Source: Cryptosporangium phraense (GTDB lineage Bacteria > Actinomycetota > Actinomycetes > Mycobacteriales > Cryptosporangiaceae). From it: DNA of 64,000 nt. Within the stretch, counting starts at the first letter, position 1. Each line of letters begins with the position of its first letter. Where the stretch lies: the NCBI RefSeq assembly GCF_006912135.1, contig NZ_VIRS01000007.1, forward strand, positions 124,001-188,000, in the 5' to 3' direction. A program made the position numbers and the translations under genes. Under the pieces are notes generated by a model. That model had not been told where the DNA came from. It searched no databases and worked only from the letters and a program-made list of their open reading frames with translations. Positions 1-53,614 of the stretch are shown one piece after another.

Positions 1-2081
<2,081 letters not shown>

Positions 2082-5619: not shown

Positions 5620-5718
5620 CGGTGATCGACCTGGATTAAAAGCATCTGAAGCAGAGACGTAACACCCGTTTCATGCGTCACGGTGGGTGCGCAATCAGGT
5701 GCCCACATTGGAGGACTC

Positions 5719-6309
5719 ATGTCACGAAAGGGTGGACGGCGCGTACCGCGCGCCGCGCTCGCCCTCGCCGGGGCGGCCGCCCTGGCGCTCGGCGTCGCGC
5801 CCGGAACCGCGCAGGCCAGCCAGGCCAGCCCGGGCGGGCACAGCCACGGCCCCCAGTTCACGCTGCCGGCCGGGGCCCCGTCGCCCGGTGCCGGTTTCCG
5901 CATCCAGGCCGCGTACAAGGTCGTACGCGGAACCCAGACCTACACCTGCGCGGCCGACGGCACCTGGGGCACCGCCGGCTCGACCCCGGAGGCCCAGCTC
6001 GCGCAGTACGGCGGGTACGGCCGGATCCACCACTACGCGGGCCCGCGCTGGACGTCGCTGCGCGACGGCTCGACGCTGCTCGGCACCGTGGTGGCCGACG
6101 CGACCCAGCAGAAGCCCCCGAGCATCCCGTGGCTGCTGCTGACCACCGCGGTCGAGAAGGGCTCGAAGTGGTCCGACCTCGGCCGGGTCACGAACATCAG
6201 CCGGGTGAACACCACCGGCGGCGCGCGCCCGACCGGGGCCTGCACCCCGGGCCAGACGCAGGCCGTGCCCTACGGCGCGGACTACGTGTTCTGGGTGCCC
6301 ACCGCCTGA
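5719..6309 (+). CDS. Exported DUF3455-like protein
   Basis: 196 residues beginning at an ATG preceded by a good GGAGGA site. An N-terminal signal peptide is clear: Arg-rich n-region (RKGGRRVPR), hydrophobic core (ALALAGAAALALGVAPG) and an AQA-S type cleavage zone near residue 33. The mature part has IQAAYKVVRGTQTYTC, TWTSLRDGSTLLGTVVAD-type sequence and a C-terminal YGADYVFWVP, the pattern of DUF3455 proteins in bacteria and fungi. No enzymatic residues are known for the family. The gene ends 12 bases before the left arm of the nhaA leader hairpin, so that hairpin could also end this transcript. Confidence 0.7.
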   Translation: MSRKGGRRVPRAALALAGAAALALGVAPGTAQASQASPGGHSHGPQFTLPAGAPSPGAGFRIQAAYKVVRGTQTYTCAADGTWGTAGSTPEAQLAQYGGYGRIHHYAGPRWTSLRDGSTLLGTVVADATQQKPPSIPWLLLTTAVEKGSKWSDLGRVTNISRVNTTGGARPTGACTPGQTQAVPYGADYVFWVPTA

Positions 6310-6321
6310 TCGCGTAACATC

Positions 6322-6382
6322 CCTCCTGGTGTGCCGGGAAGCCTGGTCGGCGACGTCCGACCCGACCCCGCACACCAGGAGG
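6322..6382 (+). promoter_or_regulatory. Leader hairpin sequestering the nhaA ribosome-binding site
   Basis: A perfect 13-bp inverted repeat: left arm CCTCCTGGTGTGC (6322-6334), right arm GCACACCAGGAGG (6370-6382). The right arm is the Shine-Dalgarno sequence itself, ending 4 bases before the nhaA ATG at 6387. Inside, GGG (6336-6338) can pair with CCC (6366-6368), and GGTCGG/CCGACC (6345-6350/6357-6362) forms a nested hairpin with a 6-base loop. Such a fold would block initiation unless opened. It may be a cis-regulatory RNA (ion, pH or temperature response) or double as terminator for the upstream gene. A TAACAT box at 6315-6320 could be a -10 element, which would put the transcript start inside the left arm and weaken the fold. 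Confidence 0.65.
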
Positions 6383-6386
6383 CCCG

Positions 6387-7658
6387 ATGGCCTGTCTACT
6401 CGCCCGGGGAACCTGGCCCGAGGCCCGTCGCGTCGCCGACGTCCTGCGCCGCGAAACGATTGGCGGCGCGCTCCTGCTGCTCGCCGCGATCGCGGCTCTC
6501 GTCCTCGCGAACACACCGGCGTCGGGCCTCTACGAGAGCGTCCGCGACAGCCACTTCGGCGTCGGGAGTCTCCACCTCGACTTGACGGTCGGCCAGTGGG
6601 CGTCCGACGGTCTGCTGGCGATCTTCTTCTTCGTCGCCGGGCTCGAACTCAAGCGCGAGTTCGTCGCCGGCGACCTCCGCGATCCGCGCCGGGCCGCGCT
6701 CCCGATCGCCGCCGCCGCCGGCGGTGTCGCCACCCCCGCGCTGCTCTACGTCGCGGTCGGGCTGAGCCGGGGCGGCCCGCTGGCCGGGTGGGCGATCCCC
6801 ACCGCCACCGACATCGCGTTCGCGCTGGCCGTGCTCGCGGTCATCGGCAGCCACCTGCCCGCCGCGCTGCGCACATTCCTGCTCACGCTGGCCGTCGTCG
6901 ACGACCTGCTGGCGATCGTCATCATCGCGGTCTTCTACACCGACCGCCTGCACCCGCTCCCGCTCGCCGGAGCCCTGGTGGCGGTCGGGCTGTTCGCGGT
7001 GCTGGTGCAGCGGCGGATCCGTTCGTGGTGGCTGCTGCTGCCGCTCGCGGTCACGGCTTGGGCGCTGGTGCACGCCTCCGGCGTCCACGCCACGGTGGCC
7101 GGCGTCCTGCTCGGCTTCACCGTGCCGGTCCTCCGGCGGGCGCCGGGCGACGGACCCGGGCTGGCCGAGCACTTCGAGCACCGGTTCCGGCCGCTCTCGG
7201 CCGGGGTCGCGGTGCCGGTCTTCGCGTTCTTCGCCGCCGGGGTCCCGATCGGCGGTCTCGACGGGCTGGGCGCCGCGCTCGCCGACCCGGTGGCGATCGG
7301 GATCGTCGCCGGGCTGGTCGCCGGCAAGACGCTCGGGATCAGCGTCACGACCTGGGCCGTCGCCCGGTTCACCCGAGCCACGCTGGACGAGGGCCTGGCC
7401 TGGATCGACGTGATCGGGCTGGCCGTGCTGGGCGGGCTCGGGTTCACGGTCTCGCTGCTCATCGGCGAGCTCGCGTTCGGCGGCGGCAGCGCCACCGGCG
7501 ACCACGTCAAGGTCGCGGTACTGACCGGGTCGCTGGTGGCCGCGGCCCTGGCCACCGTGATCCTGCGGCTGCGCGACCGTCGCTACCGGCAGGCGCACGA
7601 GGCCGATTCCGCCGACGCGAACGACGACGGCGTCCCCGACGTCTACCAGGGTCTGTAA
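6387..7658 (+). CDS. nhaA: Na+/H+ antiporter NhaA
   Basis: Electrogenic Na+(Li+)/H+ exchange across the cytoplasmic membrane for sodium and alkaline-pH homeostasis. 423 residues with about 11-12 membrane segments. Diagnostic motifs are [23 protein letters not shown] with Asp142 (E. coli Asp133) and [13 protein letters not shown] with the ion-binding pair Asp172-Asp173 (E. coli Asp163-164), then [16 protein letters not shown]. The C-terminal tail ([22 protein letters not shown]) is acidic and cytosolic. The ATG has an AGGAGG site that lies wholly inside the right arm of the upstream hairpin, so translation is probably conditional. The SDR gene begins 34 bases downstream. Confidence 0.96.
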
Positions 7659-10206: not shown

Positions 10207-11655
10207 ATGCCGACCGTCACGCTTCCGATGAACCCCGGGCTCGACCACCTGCGCAAACTCGCCCGACGCCTGCAGCGCGCGGTCCGCGCCCGCGAGCCCC
10301 GGGGCCTCGACCTCGTCGCGACCCACCACCCCGACGGCGCCCCCGCCGACCCGGCCACGTTCAAGCTCTCGGCCGCCCAACTCGTCGTCGCCCGCGCGCA
10401 CGGGTTCCGGTCCTGGCCCGCGGTCGTGCGCTACTTCGCGGTCGTCGACGCCCACCGCTGGGACCCGGCCGACGTCCCGGCCGACGAGCCCGTCGCCCAC
10501 CGGTTCCTCCGCCTCGCCTGCCTCACCTACAGCGCCGAGGACGACCCGGCCCGCTGGGCCGCGGCCGCCGCGCTGCGTCCCGAGCTCCCGGACGACGACG
10601 TCTGGGCCGCGGCCGCCGCGAACGACCGGGCGACGGTCGCCCGCCGGCTGCGCGGCGACCCCACGCTCGCGACGCGCCCCGGCGGCCCGTACGGCTGGCG
10701 CCCGCTGTTCTACCTCGCCTACAGCCGGGTCTCTCCGGCCGACGACGCCCCGGGCATCGCCGAGCTCCTCCTCGGCCACGGCGCCGACCCGAACGAGGGT
10801 TACCTCTGGCACGGCCTGCCGACGCCGTTCACCGTGCTCACCGGCGTCTTCGGCGAGGGCGAGCAGGGCGCCGCCCACCAGCCGCGTCATCCGCACAGCT
10901 CCGCGCTGGCCCGGCTGCTGCTCGACGCCGGCGCCGACCCGAACGACGCCCAGACGCTCTACAACCGCCAGTTCCGCTCCGACGACGACTTCCTCGAGAT
11001 CCTGTTCGACGCCGGCCTCGGCACCGGCGACGGCGGCCCCTGGCACCGCCGGCTCACCGACGCCACCGACACCCCGGCCGAGATGCTCCGCAGGCTGCTG
11101 CTGTGGGCCGTCGTCCACGGGCAGGCCGCCCGGGTGGACCTGCTGCTGCGTTCCGGCGTCGACCCCGGCTTCCGCGACCGCGACGGACGCACCCCGGCCG
11201 AGCTGGCCCTGCGCAACGGCTACCCGGAGCTCGCCGAGCGGCTCGGGGGCGTCCCGGACGCCGACCCGGTCACCCGCTGGGTCGGGGCCGCCCTGGCCGC
11301 GGACCCGTCCACTCTGGACGAACTGGAGGCGGCCGACCCGGGCCTGCGCGCACGCGTGCGTGAGCAGCTCCCCGGGCTGGTCGTCTGGGCCACGGCCAGC
11401 CGGGGCGCCCCGGCCCTGGAAACGTTGCTGGCCCGGGGTTTCGACGTCGACGCCCGCGGCCGCGCCGACGGCCCCACCCCGATGGAGTGGGAGACCGCCC
11501 TGCACGCGGCCGCGGGCGAGAACCGCACCGACCTGATCGCGCTGCTGCTGGCCCGGGGCGCCGACCCGACGATCCGCGACGCCCGCTTCGACGGCACCCC
11601 GCTGGACTGGGCCACCCACTTCCATCACGCCGAAGCGATCGAGCTCCTGCGCTGA
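10207..11655 (+). CDS. Ankyrin repeat domain protein
   Basis: 482-residue soluble protein starting at an ATG with a strong GAGAGGAGG site 5 bases upstream. The N-terminus (PMNPGLDHLRKLARRLQRAVR, LSAAQLVVARAHGFRSWPAV) is a conserved leader seen in bacterial ankyrin proteins. Degenerate ankyrin repeats follow: GIAELLLGHGADPNEG, ALARLLLDAGADPNDA, LLLRSGVDPGFRDRDGRTPAELALRNG, LETLLARGFDVDARG, and a good C-terminal pair TALHAAAGENRTDLIALLLA and TPLDWATHFHHAEAIELL. Probably a protein-protein scaffold; partner unknown. It is transcribed alone. Confidence 0.85.
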   Translation: MPTVTLPMNPGLDHLRKLARRLQRAVRAREPRGLDLVATHHPDGAPADPATFKLSAAQLVVARAHGFRSWPAVVRYFAVVDAHRWDPADVPADEPVAHRFLRLACLTYSAEDDPARWAAAAALRPELPDDDVWAAAAANDRATVARRLRGDPTLATRPGGPYGWRPLFYLAYSRVSPADDAPGIAELLLGHGADPNEGYLWHGLPTPFTVLTGVFGEGEQGAAHQPRHPHSSALARLLLDAGADPNDAQTLYNRQFRSDDDFLEILFDAGLGTGDGGPWHRRLTDATDTPAEMLRRLLLWAVVHGQAARVDLLLRSGVDPGFRDRDGRTPAELALRNGYPELAERLGGVPDADPVTRWVGAALAADPSTLDELEAADPGLRARVREQLPGLVVWATASRGAPALETLLARGFDVDARGRADGPTPMEWETALHAAAGENRTDLIALLLARGADPTIRDARFDGTPLDWATHFHHAEAIELLR

Positions 11656-27172: not shown

Positions 27173-27208
27173 AAATCGGCCTCTCCCGAGCCCGGGAGAG
27201 GCCGATTT
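27173..27208. terminator. Bidirectional terminator hairpin
   Basis: A perfect 16-bp inverted repeat (AAATCGGCCTCTCCCG, loop AGCC, CGGGAGAGGCCGATTT) between the convergent DUF1996 and VWA genes. The A-rich foot on one side and T-rich foot on the other give a short U-run in both directions. It is the clearest terminator of the window. Confidence 0.9.
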
Positions 27209-36696: not shown

Positions 36697-37943
36697 CCCA
36701 CCAGCGACCGCAGGTTGGCCACGGTCCAGCGGCGGTCGAACAGCGTCGGGTCGCCGGCGTCCTCGGCGCGCAGGGCCTCGATCAGGCGGACGTAGGCGTC
36801 CAGGTCGAGCCCGCGCACGAAGCCGAGGACCTCGGCGGCCTCGCCGGTCGCCGGCGCGACCGCGGCGACGTAGGAGTCGTAGAGGTCGACGACCTGCTGC
36901 ACCATCGCGAGGTGCCGGGCCCCCGGGTCGACGCTCGGGAAGTTCGTCGCCGCGAAGTCCTCGGTGAACACGATCGGCTCGACCGCGAGCGCGCCGGCCC
37001 CGTACCGCTGGGCCAGGTGGATCAGCAGCTCGACGTCGAACGTCTCGTTGAACGACGACATCTCGCCGAGCACCGGGGCGAGCGCCTCGGCGTCGAACGC
37101 CTTGAACCCGGCCTGGGTGTCGAGCACCCGGGCCAGGTCGGGAATCAGCGTCGCCCGGACGAAGTGCCGGAACAGCACGATCAGCTTGTCGGGCTTGTCG
37201 CCGGTGCTGTGCGGCTCGACCGACGGCCCGTCCGGCTTGACCAGCACCGCGCCGTCCATTCCGTACCGCTGCCCGAGCGCGCCGGCCGCCCCGTCGAGAA
37301 TGGGTGCGGCCAGAGACCCCACCTGGGCCAGGTTCGAGGACAGGTCCGCGTCCGTGTAGAGAACGACGTGGCGGACGCCCTCCGGCGCGCCGTCACGGAC
37401 CGCGGTGGCCAGCGCGGCCAGGATCGAGCCGCCCTTGCGCGACTGGTTCGTCGACGTGAGCGCGTCGAAGGCCGGGCTGATCGGGAACTTCCCACCGATC
37501 AGGTCGGCCAGCCGGATCACCGCGACGTCGTCGTAGCCCTCGGCGGCGATGATCCCGGCCATCACGTCGGCGCTCGACGGCTCGTCCGGGCAGCCGTCGT
37601 CGCAGGCCAGGATGTTCCAGGTCACGCCGGGCAGACCGGCGGTGAGCCAGTCGAGCTGGCGCACCTTGGCCCGGACGAAGTCCTCGCCGTGCGGGTGCTC
37701 GGACCGCGGGACCATCCGTCCGGTCTCGCCGTACATCGCGAACACGACGGTCAGGTGCACCGGGGTCGCCGCCGCGGCCAGCCGGGCCCGCGAGCGGGCC
37801 GCGGCGGCGGCCTCGGCCGCGACGGCCGGGCCGTTCCCGTCCGTGGCGGTGCCGTCGGTGAGCAGGCGGGACGCGAGCGTGAGCACGGCCTCGTTCTGCT
37901 CCGAATCGGTCAGATCGCGAACCGCGGCGGAAGTCTGCTCCAT
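36693..37943 (-). CDS. GT-A-fold glycosyltransferase-like protein
   Basis: 416 residues. The core (about 60-290) looks like family 2 transferases: THLTVVFAMYGET-type first strand, WNILACDDGCPDEPS, a likely DxD site in LYTDADLSSN, and KLIVLFRHFVRATLIPDLARV with DTQAGFKAFDAEAL, which recalls dolichyl/polyprenyl-phosphate sugar transferases. No membrane helices are seen. Residues 350-416 are helical. Donor and acceptor unknown. The ATG has no Shine-Dalgarno; TACGAT lies 9 bases upstream, consistent with a very short or absent leader. Confidence 0.65.
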   Translation of the reverse strand: MEQTSAAVRDLTDSEQNEAVLTLASRLLTDGTATDGNGPAVAAEAAAAARSRARLAAAATPVHLTVVFAMYGETGRMVPRSEHPHGEDFVRAKVRQLDWLTAGLPGVTWNILACDDGCPDEPSSADVMAGIIAAEGYDDVAVIRLADLIGGKFPISPAFDALTSTNQSRKGGSILAALATAVRDGAPEGVRHVVLYTDADLSSNLAQVGSLAAPILDGAAGALGQRYGMDGAVLVKPDGPSVEPHSTGDKPDKLIVLFRHFVRATLIPDLARVLDTQAGFKAFDAEALAPVLGEMSSFNETFDVELLIHLAQRYGAGALAVEPIVFTEDFAATNFPSVDPGARHLAMVQQVVDLYDSYVAAVAPATGEAAEVLGFVRGLDLDAYVRLIEALRAEDAGDPTLFDRRWTVANLRSLVG

Positions 37944-53194: not shown

Positions 53195-53614
53195 ATGACT
53201 CGTTCGCTGGCCGAGATCGGACTGTCGGTGAAGCGGCTGCAGATGGCCCACCATCGCGCGGCCAACGTCGCGCTGGCGCCGCTGGGCCTCTCGATCGTGC
53301 AGTGGGACGCCCTGCGCCACCTGCGCCAGAACCCGGACGCGTCGCTGCACGACCTGGCCGTGCTGACGTTCCAGACCGATCAGTCGTTCGGCACGCTGGC
53401 CGCCCGCCTGATCGACCGCGGCCTGATCGAGCGCGTCCCCGGACCGGGCCGGGCGGTGAAGCACCGCTTGACCCCGCACGGCCTGGCCGTCCAGGAGGAG
53501 GGCCAGGCCGTGCTGAACGACGTGCTGGGCCGCACGTTCGGCGCGCTCGCCCCGGACGAGCTGGCCGCCTTCGACGGCCTGCTCACCCGGCTGCTCGCGA
53601 GCGCGTCCGGCTGA
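53195..53614 (+). CDS. MarR family transcriptional regulator
   Basis: 139 residues: helix 1-2 LSVKRLQMAHHRAANVALAPLGL, winged HTH (SLHDLAVLTFQTDQSFGTLAARLIDRGLIERVPGPGRAVKHRLT) and the C-terminal dimer helices. It probably senses a phenolic or lipophilic ligand and controls the divergent alpha/beta hydrolase and itself. The stop is 3 bases from the convergent MMPL stop. Confidence 0.92.
   Translation: MTRSLAEIGLSVKRLQMAHHRAANVALAPLGLSIVQWDALRHLRQNPDASLHDLAVLTFQTDQSFGTLAARLIDRGLIERVPGPGRAVKHRLTPHGLAVQEEGQAVLNDVLGRTFGALAPDELAAFDGLLTRLLASASG

Follow-up and report, generated by a model that had tools for sequence, protein, structure and literature searches.

The described systems closest to the locus reported here are leader RNAs that respond to alkali ions. 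The Li+-I riboswitch (nhaA-I, RF03057) and the Li+-II riboswitch (nhaA-II, RF03038) precede nhaA, and the Na+-I riboswitch (DUF1646 motif; "Sodium" in Rfam, RF03071) and the Na+-II riboswitch, a variant of nhaA-I, are likewise linked to a set of Na+ transport genes. Passages of PMC9337991 describe activation of expression by Na+-I at high Na+, and passages of PMC9646797 speculate that most Li+-I riboswitches control ribosome access. Here, we describe an element in the leader of the Cryptosporangium phraense nhaA gene, within a 64,000-nucleotide stretch of contig NZ_VIRS01000007.1 (positions 124,001 to 188,000), called the window below; unprefixed positions are those of the window, and all features located in it lie on the + strand. 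The element resembles these riboswitches in standing before nhaA and in its association with Na+ transport genes. From comparative sequence evidence, we lean toward the view that positions 6328 to 6353 are the 5′-terminal core of a new compact class of cis-regulatory RNA, most likely sensing Na+ (or linked Li+/H+).

The gene at 6387 to 7658, which an earlier sequence-only reading of the window had named nhaA, does encode an NhaA Na+/H+ antiporter (PF06965, E 1e-127). Its leader holds a conserved 26-nt element, GGNGNGCCGGGAAGNCTGGTCGGCNN, at 6328 to 6353 (model R1, 44.7 bits; alignment A1), whose 24-nt core, GGNGNGCCGGGAAGNCUGGUCGGC, occupies 6328 to 6351. Searching nhaA leaders with up to five edits allowed, we found GGTGNGCCGGGAAGNCTGGTCGGC within 300 nt upstream in 100 of 110 loci, 93 times exactly, five times with one edit, and twice with two; of the ten loci without it, one (L052) has just 42 nt upstream. 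These loci (L001 to L110) were picked by NhaA similarity and comprise 30 from the window's genome and 29 relatives and 80 from named genomes, which include Kineosporia, Actinoplanes, Saccharothrix, Nocardioides, Cellulomonas, Geodermatophilus, Blastococcus, Pseudonocardia, Micromonospora, Nonomuraea, Nakamurella, Arthrobacter, a Patulibacter metagenome-assembled genome, and others. The window's genome has one R1 match at E ≤ 0.1, the copy described above, and no copy was detected near a second, more distant NhaA match (G000:C1). Across 31 genomes (the window's and 30 relatives), 22 have a copy at 40 to 46 bits, followed by two matches at 30 to 35 bits and then a drop to 24 to 27 bits, so that conservation of the element is close to all-or-none. 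In two Aeromicrobium loci (L086 and L109), nhaA lacks the element and has a different long inverted repeat upstream (GACGTTT.../...AAACGTC). Locus L168 has a possible tandem: behind the first copy, its nhaA leader holds a second, imperfect one (TGCCGGGAAGTCCGGTAGG; near 1400 to 1524, minus strand).

Pattern searches covered this phylum. A 21-base pattern, GNGCCGGGAAGNCTGGTCGGC, was matched with at most one mismatch in 261 of 394 genomes of the class, compared with 10 matches to the reversed pattern, and in 99 of 396 genomes of a phylum sample, compared with 3 for the reversed pattern; outside the class, 63 of 358 phylum-sample genomes match. All 39 genomes of the best-sampled genus (g64) have a copy, and two genomes have nine copies each at up to one mismatch. 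A viral scan returned two exact 21-base matches lacking the GGNG start, which we took as chance and removed from the counts. In the analyses that follow, sets of 254 and 298 are distinct 130-base stretches with at most one mismatch, the set of 286 consists of the exact ones minus the two viral matches, and the sets of 238 and 246 leaders are exact copies with a script-chosen start codon 45 to 110 and 45 to 130 nt downstream, respectively.

Shares of genes behind the element were drawn only from loci L111 to L140 and L249 to L288, loci L149 to L246 having come from genomes selected for having copies; some loci represent the same genome out of two collections. The first 30 loci listed (L111 to L140) contain 22 NhaA, assigned by similarity cluster, three Na+/H+ exchangers (PF00999), two ABC ATPases, one CBS protein, one CitMHS_2 protein, and one permease-like protein without a Pfam match. 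Outside the class, 40 stretches (L249 to L288), drawn regardless of genes from 29 of the 63 genomes with a match, hold 41 exact copies. These stand before 17 NhaA, nine MrpA, two P-type cation ATPases, one membrane pyrophosphatase, one Na+/Ca2+ exchanger, one CitMHS/NhaD-like protein, two CBS proteins, two NfeD proteins, two CRP-type regulators, one STAS protein, one DUF2254 protein, and two unassigned proteins, and 31 of the 41 precede ion transporters. Pfam scans support all nine MrpA and four of the 17 NhaA; the other NhaA were assigned by similarity cluster, and one CBS protein and one CRP-type regulator were placed by similarity. Among NCBIfam models, the two MrpA tested scored best with Na+/H+ antiporter subunit A, the partial pyrophosphatase with sodium-translocating pyrophosphatase, and the two P-type ATPases with Ca2+-type models, in every case below cut-off. 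Two proteins passed their NCBIfam models, a calcium/sodium antiporter (L081) and a CPA1 Na+/H+ antiporter (L206). In other fetched loci, the element is followed by TrkH (L177), TrkA-N (L064), a PF00520 ion channel (L197), and the Na+/Ca2+ exchanger of L081. The element thus has what is expected of a riboswitch: a place in a 5′ leader (predicted from a −10-like box), conservation in distant lineages, and a coherent gene set. We tentatively entertain, at somewhat under an even chance, a broader reading in which a phylum-wide alkali-ion riboswitch with an approximately 25-nt Na+ aptamer, starting at the first transcribed base, controls much of actinobacterial sodium export (Nha, Mrp, CPA, Na+/Ca2+ exchange, ATPase, and pyrophosphatase).

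The element keeps a fixed distance from a likely promoter. In 225 of the 286 exact copies, a TANNNT motif begins 12 to 15 nt upstream of the element's first G, with a peak of 144 matches at 13 nt and no more than five at any tested offset outside 12 to 15, and the −10 peak is also visible in base composition across 176 copies. In the window, TAACAT at 6315 to 6320 lies at offset 13, and the usual spacing from −10 box to start puts transcription initiation at 6327 or 6328; a two-hexamer sigma-70 scan of 6150 to 6500 gave no promoter match. The predicted 5′ end of the nhaA mRNA is therefore at G6328 or one base before it. Divergent pairs of elements approximately 100 to 400 bp apart, as if in back-to-back promoters, were seen at G030:C3:4613307-4613452, G345:C38:27065-27297, and G223:C1:3980303-3980747. 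The fixed position relative to the −10 box, the shared gene set, the presence of several copies in some genomes, and a partial GCCG/CGGC symmetry would also suit a DNA operator, the 24 bp from +1 to +24 being bound by a repressor or activator that governs a sodium regulon. However, the inner sequence of the element is non-palindromic, and near-complete invariance across many families would be unusual, operators seldom being near-invariant over such a range.

Coupling between two positions of the element also bears on whether it works as DNA or RNA. Positions 5 and 25 in the 286 copies are U.G in 121, C.A in 96, and A.A in 27; U.G and C.A together account for 217 copies where 112.9 are expected, and Watson–Crick pairs are depleted to 14 where 113.8 are expected. 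As wobbles, U.G and C.A+ are isosteric. At the DNA level, either combination makes the site asymmetric, and the symmetric T5..A25 and C5..G25 are depleted (13/286), whereas T..G and C..A, natural wobbles in RNA, dominate. An NhaA tree with 169 tips shows 54 changes at position 5 and 47 at position 25; both positions change on 26 branches, in 19 cases as exact swaps between C.A and U.G. Random placement weighted by branch length gave a mean of 12.1 joint changes and a maximum of 21 in 5000 trials, and seven other column pairs were nearer expectation, the largest being position 5 with 26 (16 versus 11.3). The coupling of positions 5 and 25 as U.G or C.A, with Watson–Crick pairs avoided, favors RNA, and overall we consider it very likely that the element acts as RNA.

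Two alternative stems are proposed. In the first, P1, positions 5 to 9 (6332 to 6336) would pair with positions 21 to 25 (6348 to 6352) around a loop of positions 10 to 20, closed by U.G or C.A (in the window, U5 wobbling with G25). In the second, P2, positions 18 to 23 or 24 would pair with a CCGACC-like leader sequence; the predicted strands in the window are GGTCGG at 6345 to 6350 and CCGACC at 6357 to 6362, with a second CCGACC copy at 6362 to 6367. P1 and P2 would be mutually exclusive, since the 5′ strand of P2 overlaps the 3′ strand of P1. Leader pairing with positions 16 to 24 reaches at least 6 bp in 180 of 238 leaders compared with 116 in shuffles, and at least 8 bp in 54 compared with 17.4, and a complement of GGTCGG is present in 57 of 128 nhaA leaders (20.9 in shuffles) and 7 of 48 other leaders (2.1 in shuffles). 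This enrichment of P2-complementary sequence is a further argument against a DNA operator, which on balance we regard as unlikely. A stem between positions 1 to 5 and an RCACC near the Shine–Dalgarno (SD) sequence has a perfect complement in 25 of 254 stretches, with marginal compensation (p 0.06 for nhaA, 0.04 for all), and GGTGT-type complements exceed shuffles in nhaA leaders (33/128 versus 12.5); we keep this closing stem as a lineage detail. A pseudoknot between the loop (CUGG) and the SD was also considered (70/156 versus 48/161 control SDs, p 0.007), but the excess lies mainly in CCGGAG and we do not believe it.

As a working mechanism for the proposed riboswitch, the RNA would sense Na+ (or linked Li+/H+) and tune genes that export Na+, with P1 as the ion-bound fold and P2 as the ion-free default. 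Action on translation is proposed because the leaders are short (in the nhaA cluster, a median of 61 nt separates the element from the script-chosen start) and the window offers no terminator-like site. The gene would be expected to turn on at high Na+, by analogy with the Na+-I and Li+ riboswitches as described in parts of PMC9337991 and PMC9646797. The wobble at the base of P1 might, as C.A+, link the switch to pH. Direct ion sensing by a riboswitch seems probable to us, and if the element is a riboswitch, Na+ is quite likely to be its ligand. Every step beyond the conserved element, the P1/P2 structure included, is a proposal.

Several observations weigh against an RNA switch of this kind dedicated to sodium. 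Hydrolases, DUF3040 proteins, and an acyltransferase also follow the element and do not fit a sodium theme, and STAS, CBS, and DUF2254 proteins, CRP-type regulators, and TrkH are likewise not Na+ genes. The nhaA leaders are related to one another, which inflates the P2 enrichment. P1 lacks standard covariation, five of its six pairs being nearly constant, and on standard pairs it falls below shuffles (89.4% paired versus 90.6%, covariation 0.018 versus 0.038), partly owing to a scoring that leaves C.A out of the pairs. P1 is also nearly never formed in free folds of the leader (mean probability 0.002) and would therefore need the ligand or tertiary contacts, and other hairpins of the isolated 26-mer are equally or more stable. 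Finally, the SD is no more hidden than in shuffles and even slightly more accessible (0.416 versus 0.379), so that the expression platform is only putative. An RNA element recognized by an RNA-binding protein, rather than one that senses an ion directly, would be backed by the same sequence evidence, and both the very short, near-invariant core and the instability of P1 on its own would suit protein recognition. Nevertheless, the gene set is like those of the Li+ and Na+ riboswitches as passages of PMC9646797 and PMC9337991 present them, and we think a protein-bound element improbable.

The sequence-only reading had proposed a different structure at this locus, a hairpin that buries the nhaA SD and could be a new ion, pH, or thermal switch. 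Its geometry is as described: CCTCCTGGTGTGC at 6322 to 6334 and GCACACCAGGAGG at 6370 to 6382 are exactly complementary 13-base arms, the right arm holds the AGGAGG SD (6377 to 6382) with a 4-base gap before the ATG at 6387, and nested pairing of GGTCGG with CCGACC is predicted again within it. The fold of 6300 to 6420 has an energy of −56.4 kcal/mol (z −2.86), equaled by 1 of 200 shuffles. Inverted repeats of 13-mers with spacers of 3 to 60 gave nine overlapping matches at five places in the window, compared with an average of 0.43 in 30 shuffled windows; the repeat at nhaA exceeds chance, yet perfect repeats of this kind, with arms of at least 13 bases and short spacers, also lie at four further places, 11451 to 11518, 27173 to 27208, 37767 to 37809, and 53476 to 53513.

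When the left arm is included in the fold, the SD is fully paired (unpaired probability 0.00 to 0.03), as a hairpin hiding it would require, and when the fold starts at 6328, the SD is only partly open, pairing with coding sequence instead. The −10-like box predicts a start at about 6327 to 6328, inside the left arm, so that CCTCCT at 6322 to 6327, its anti-SD part, is probably absent from the RNA. Nor are the SD-burying arms conserved, so that both outcomes named by the sequence-only reading as refuting its hairpin are favored by the comparison, the start by prediction. In 246 leaders, pairing between a left region (10 nt upstream of the element to 7 nt inside it) and the SD region is at shuffle level: the longest helix is 2 to 6 bp in 239 and at least 7 bp in seven, compared with 7.8 expected, and only the window leader reaches at least 10 bp (13 bp). 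Three nhaA leaders from the same genus were compared (L002, L003, and L009), and the CCTCCT/AGGAGG pairing is kept in none of them. The inner stem, in which GCACACC at 6370 to 6376 is the partner of 6328 to 6334, is retained in only part of the genus, L002 keeping 6 bp and L003 5 bp of GGTGTG/CACACC and L009 none; this recurrence in two of three leaders is the point in the hairpin's favor. A transcribed and conserved anti-SD arm, as an SD-sequestering switch or thermometer would have, is thus seen neither in the 246 leaders nor at a locus whose predicted start falls inside that arm. The hairpin does exist, as a peculiarity of this genome; within it sits the conserved element, which the sequence-only reading had not picked out and which takes in no more of the left arm than its inner half. 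We reject the SD-burying hairpin as a conserved feature and consider it very unlikely to work in this species as a switch responding to ions, pH, or temperature; from the earlier proposal, the antiporter leader and probable ion-linked RNA control stand, and the burying of the SD does not.

An intrinsic terminator of the preceding gene had been named as the main alternative to that hairpin. The preceding gene encodes a DUF3455 protein (ORF, open reading frame, 5683 to 6309, likely start ATG 5719; PF11937, E 3e-20 for 5719 to 6306), and a G+C-rich hairpin does lie directly past its stop codon, but the hairpin has no T run, no terminator-like site was found in 6150 to 6500, and the element stands before many different genes. 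We therefore reject a terminator, which is extremely improbable here. A leaderless upstream ORF was also considered, with GTGYGCCGGGAAGNCTGGTCGGC encoding a leader peptide M-[RCS]-R-E-[VAD]-W-S. Its GTG adjoins the predicted start, and the frame is open across the element, the shortest ORFs among the matches listed having eight codons. However, T stands at position 3 in 236 of 286 copies, and the other 50 therefore have no GTG; variation falls on the first base of codon 2 and on the second base of codon 5 instead of on third positions; and the frame relative to nhaA is not kept (39/36/25). The loss of the GTG and the drifting frame led us to reject the leader peptide, for which we see very little chance.

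Against these alternatives, the preferred reading of the element as a cis-regulatory RNA was compared with catalogued families. At gathering scores, the whole window has no match to any Rfam 15 family, and a cmscan of 6200 to 6500 (301 bases) at E ≤ 10 returned three microRNA models only, with no match to nhaA-I, nhaA-II, or Sodium; the covariance-model comparison suggested by the sequence-only reading thus places the leader in neither nhaA family. Rfam searches of 15 nhaA loci gave only two unrelated small RNA matches; in 10 other loci, the matches were a tRNA and a cobalamin riboswitch, both elsewhere. In Geodermatophilus and Blastococcus, nhaA is closely followed by the Rfam small RNA Ms_IGR-5 (RF02471; L040:4413-4669 and L058:4399-4658). 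In phylum samples, the nhaA-I model matched in 1 of 100 genomes, the nhaA-II model in none of 100, its control genomes being silent too, and the Sodium model in none of 41, with its control detected in Lactococcus lactis; Na+-II was represented in these tests by the nhaA-I model only. The single nhaA-I (Li+-I) match, at L289:1501-1555 on the minus strand, scores 47.1 bits, above the gathering score. The Li+ and Na+ riboswitch models are rare or unseen in these samples of the phylum (nhaA-II lacking a working control). The element string is absent from the open literature searched, as is any report of an nhaA-III, nhaA RNA motif, or nhaA leader describing the element; subscription papers and preprints lay outside that scope, so unpublished status is unproven. 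Two genome surveys of leader RNAs (PMC11109978 and PMC8632094) contain no nhaA motif in the passages found.

Each described system is set apart from the element by size, architecture, or model score. The Li+-I riboswitch also has the word UGGUCGG in common with the element, but a shared word of at least seven bases occurs in 22% of shuffles, and we rejected homology on this ground as not significant; Li+-I has a 55-position, two-hairpin consensus and no match at E ≤ 10 in 6200 to 6500. Li+-II has an 84-position model, again without a match at E ≤ 10, and the Na+-I model has no match there at E ≤ 10 and none in the window's genome (G000). The dauA and nqrA-II motifs and others of a 50-genome survey, as far as passages of PMC11109978 describe them, are likewise candidate actinobacterial or sodium-linked leader RNAs, but dauA is a three-stem junction of Streptomyces with 57 representatives and nqrA-II a Pasteurellaceae motif of four stem-loops, and both are set apart by description. 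We therefore file the element as an uncatalogued cis-regulatory RNA class, outside every tested family and probably an ion riboswitch. If this is true, a short, invariant, and widespread element before unrelated sodium-export genes would be a directly testable sodium (or pH/salt) sensor and a ready-made salt-responsive leader for actinobacterial genetics, and it would broaden the range of known alkali-ion riboswitches to include one whose core is much smaller.
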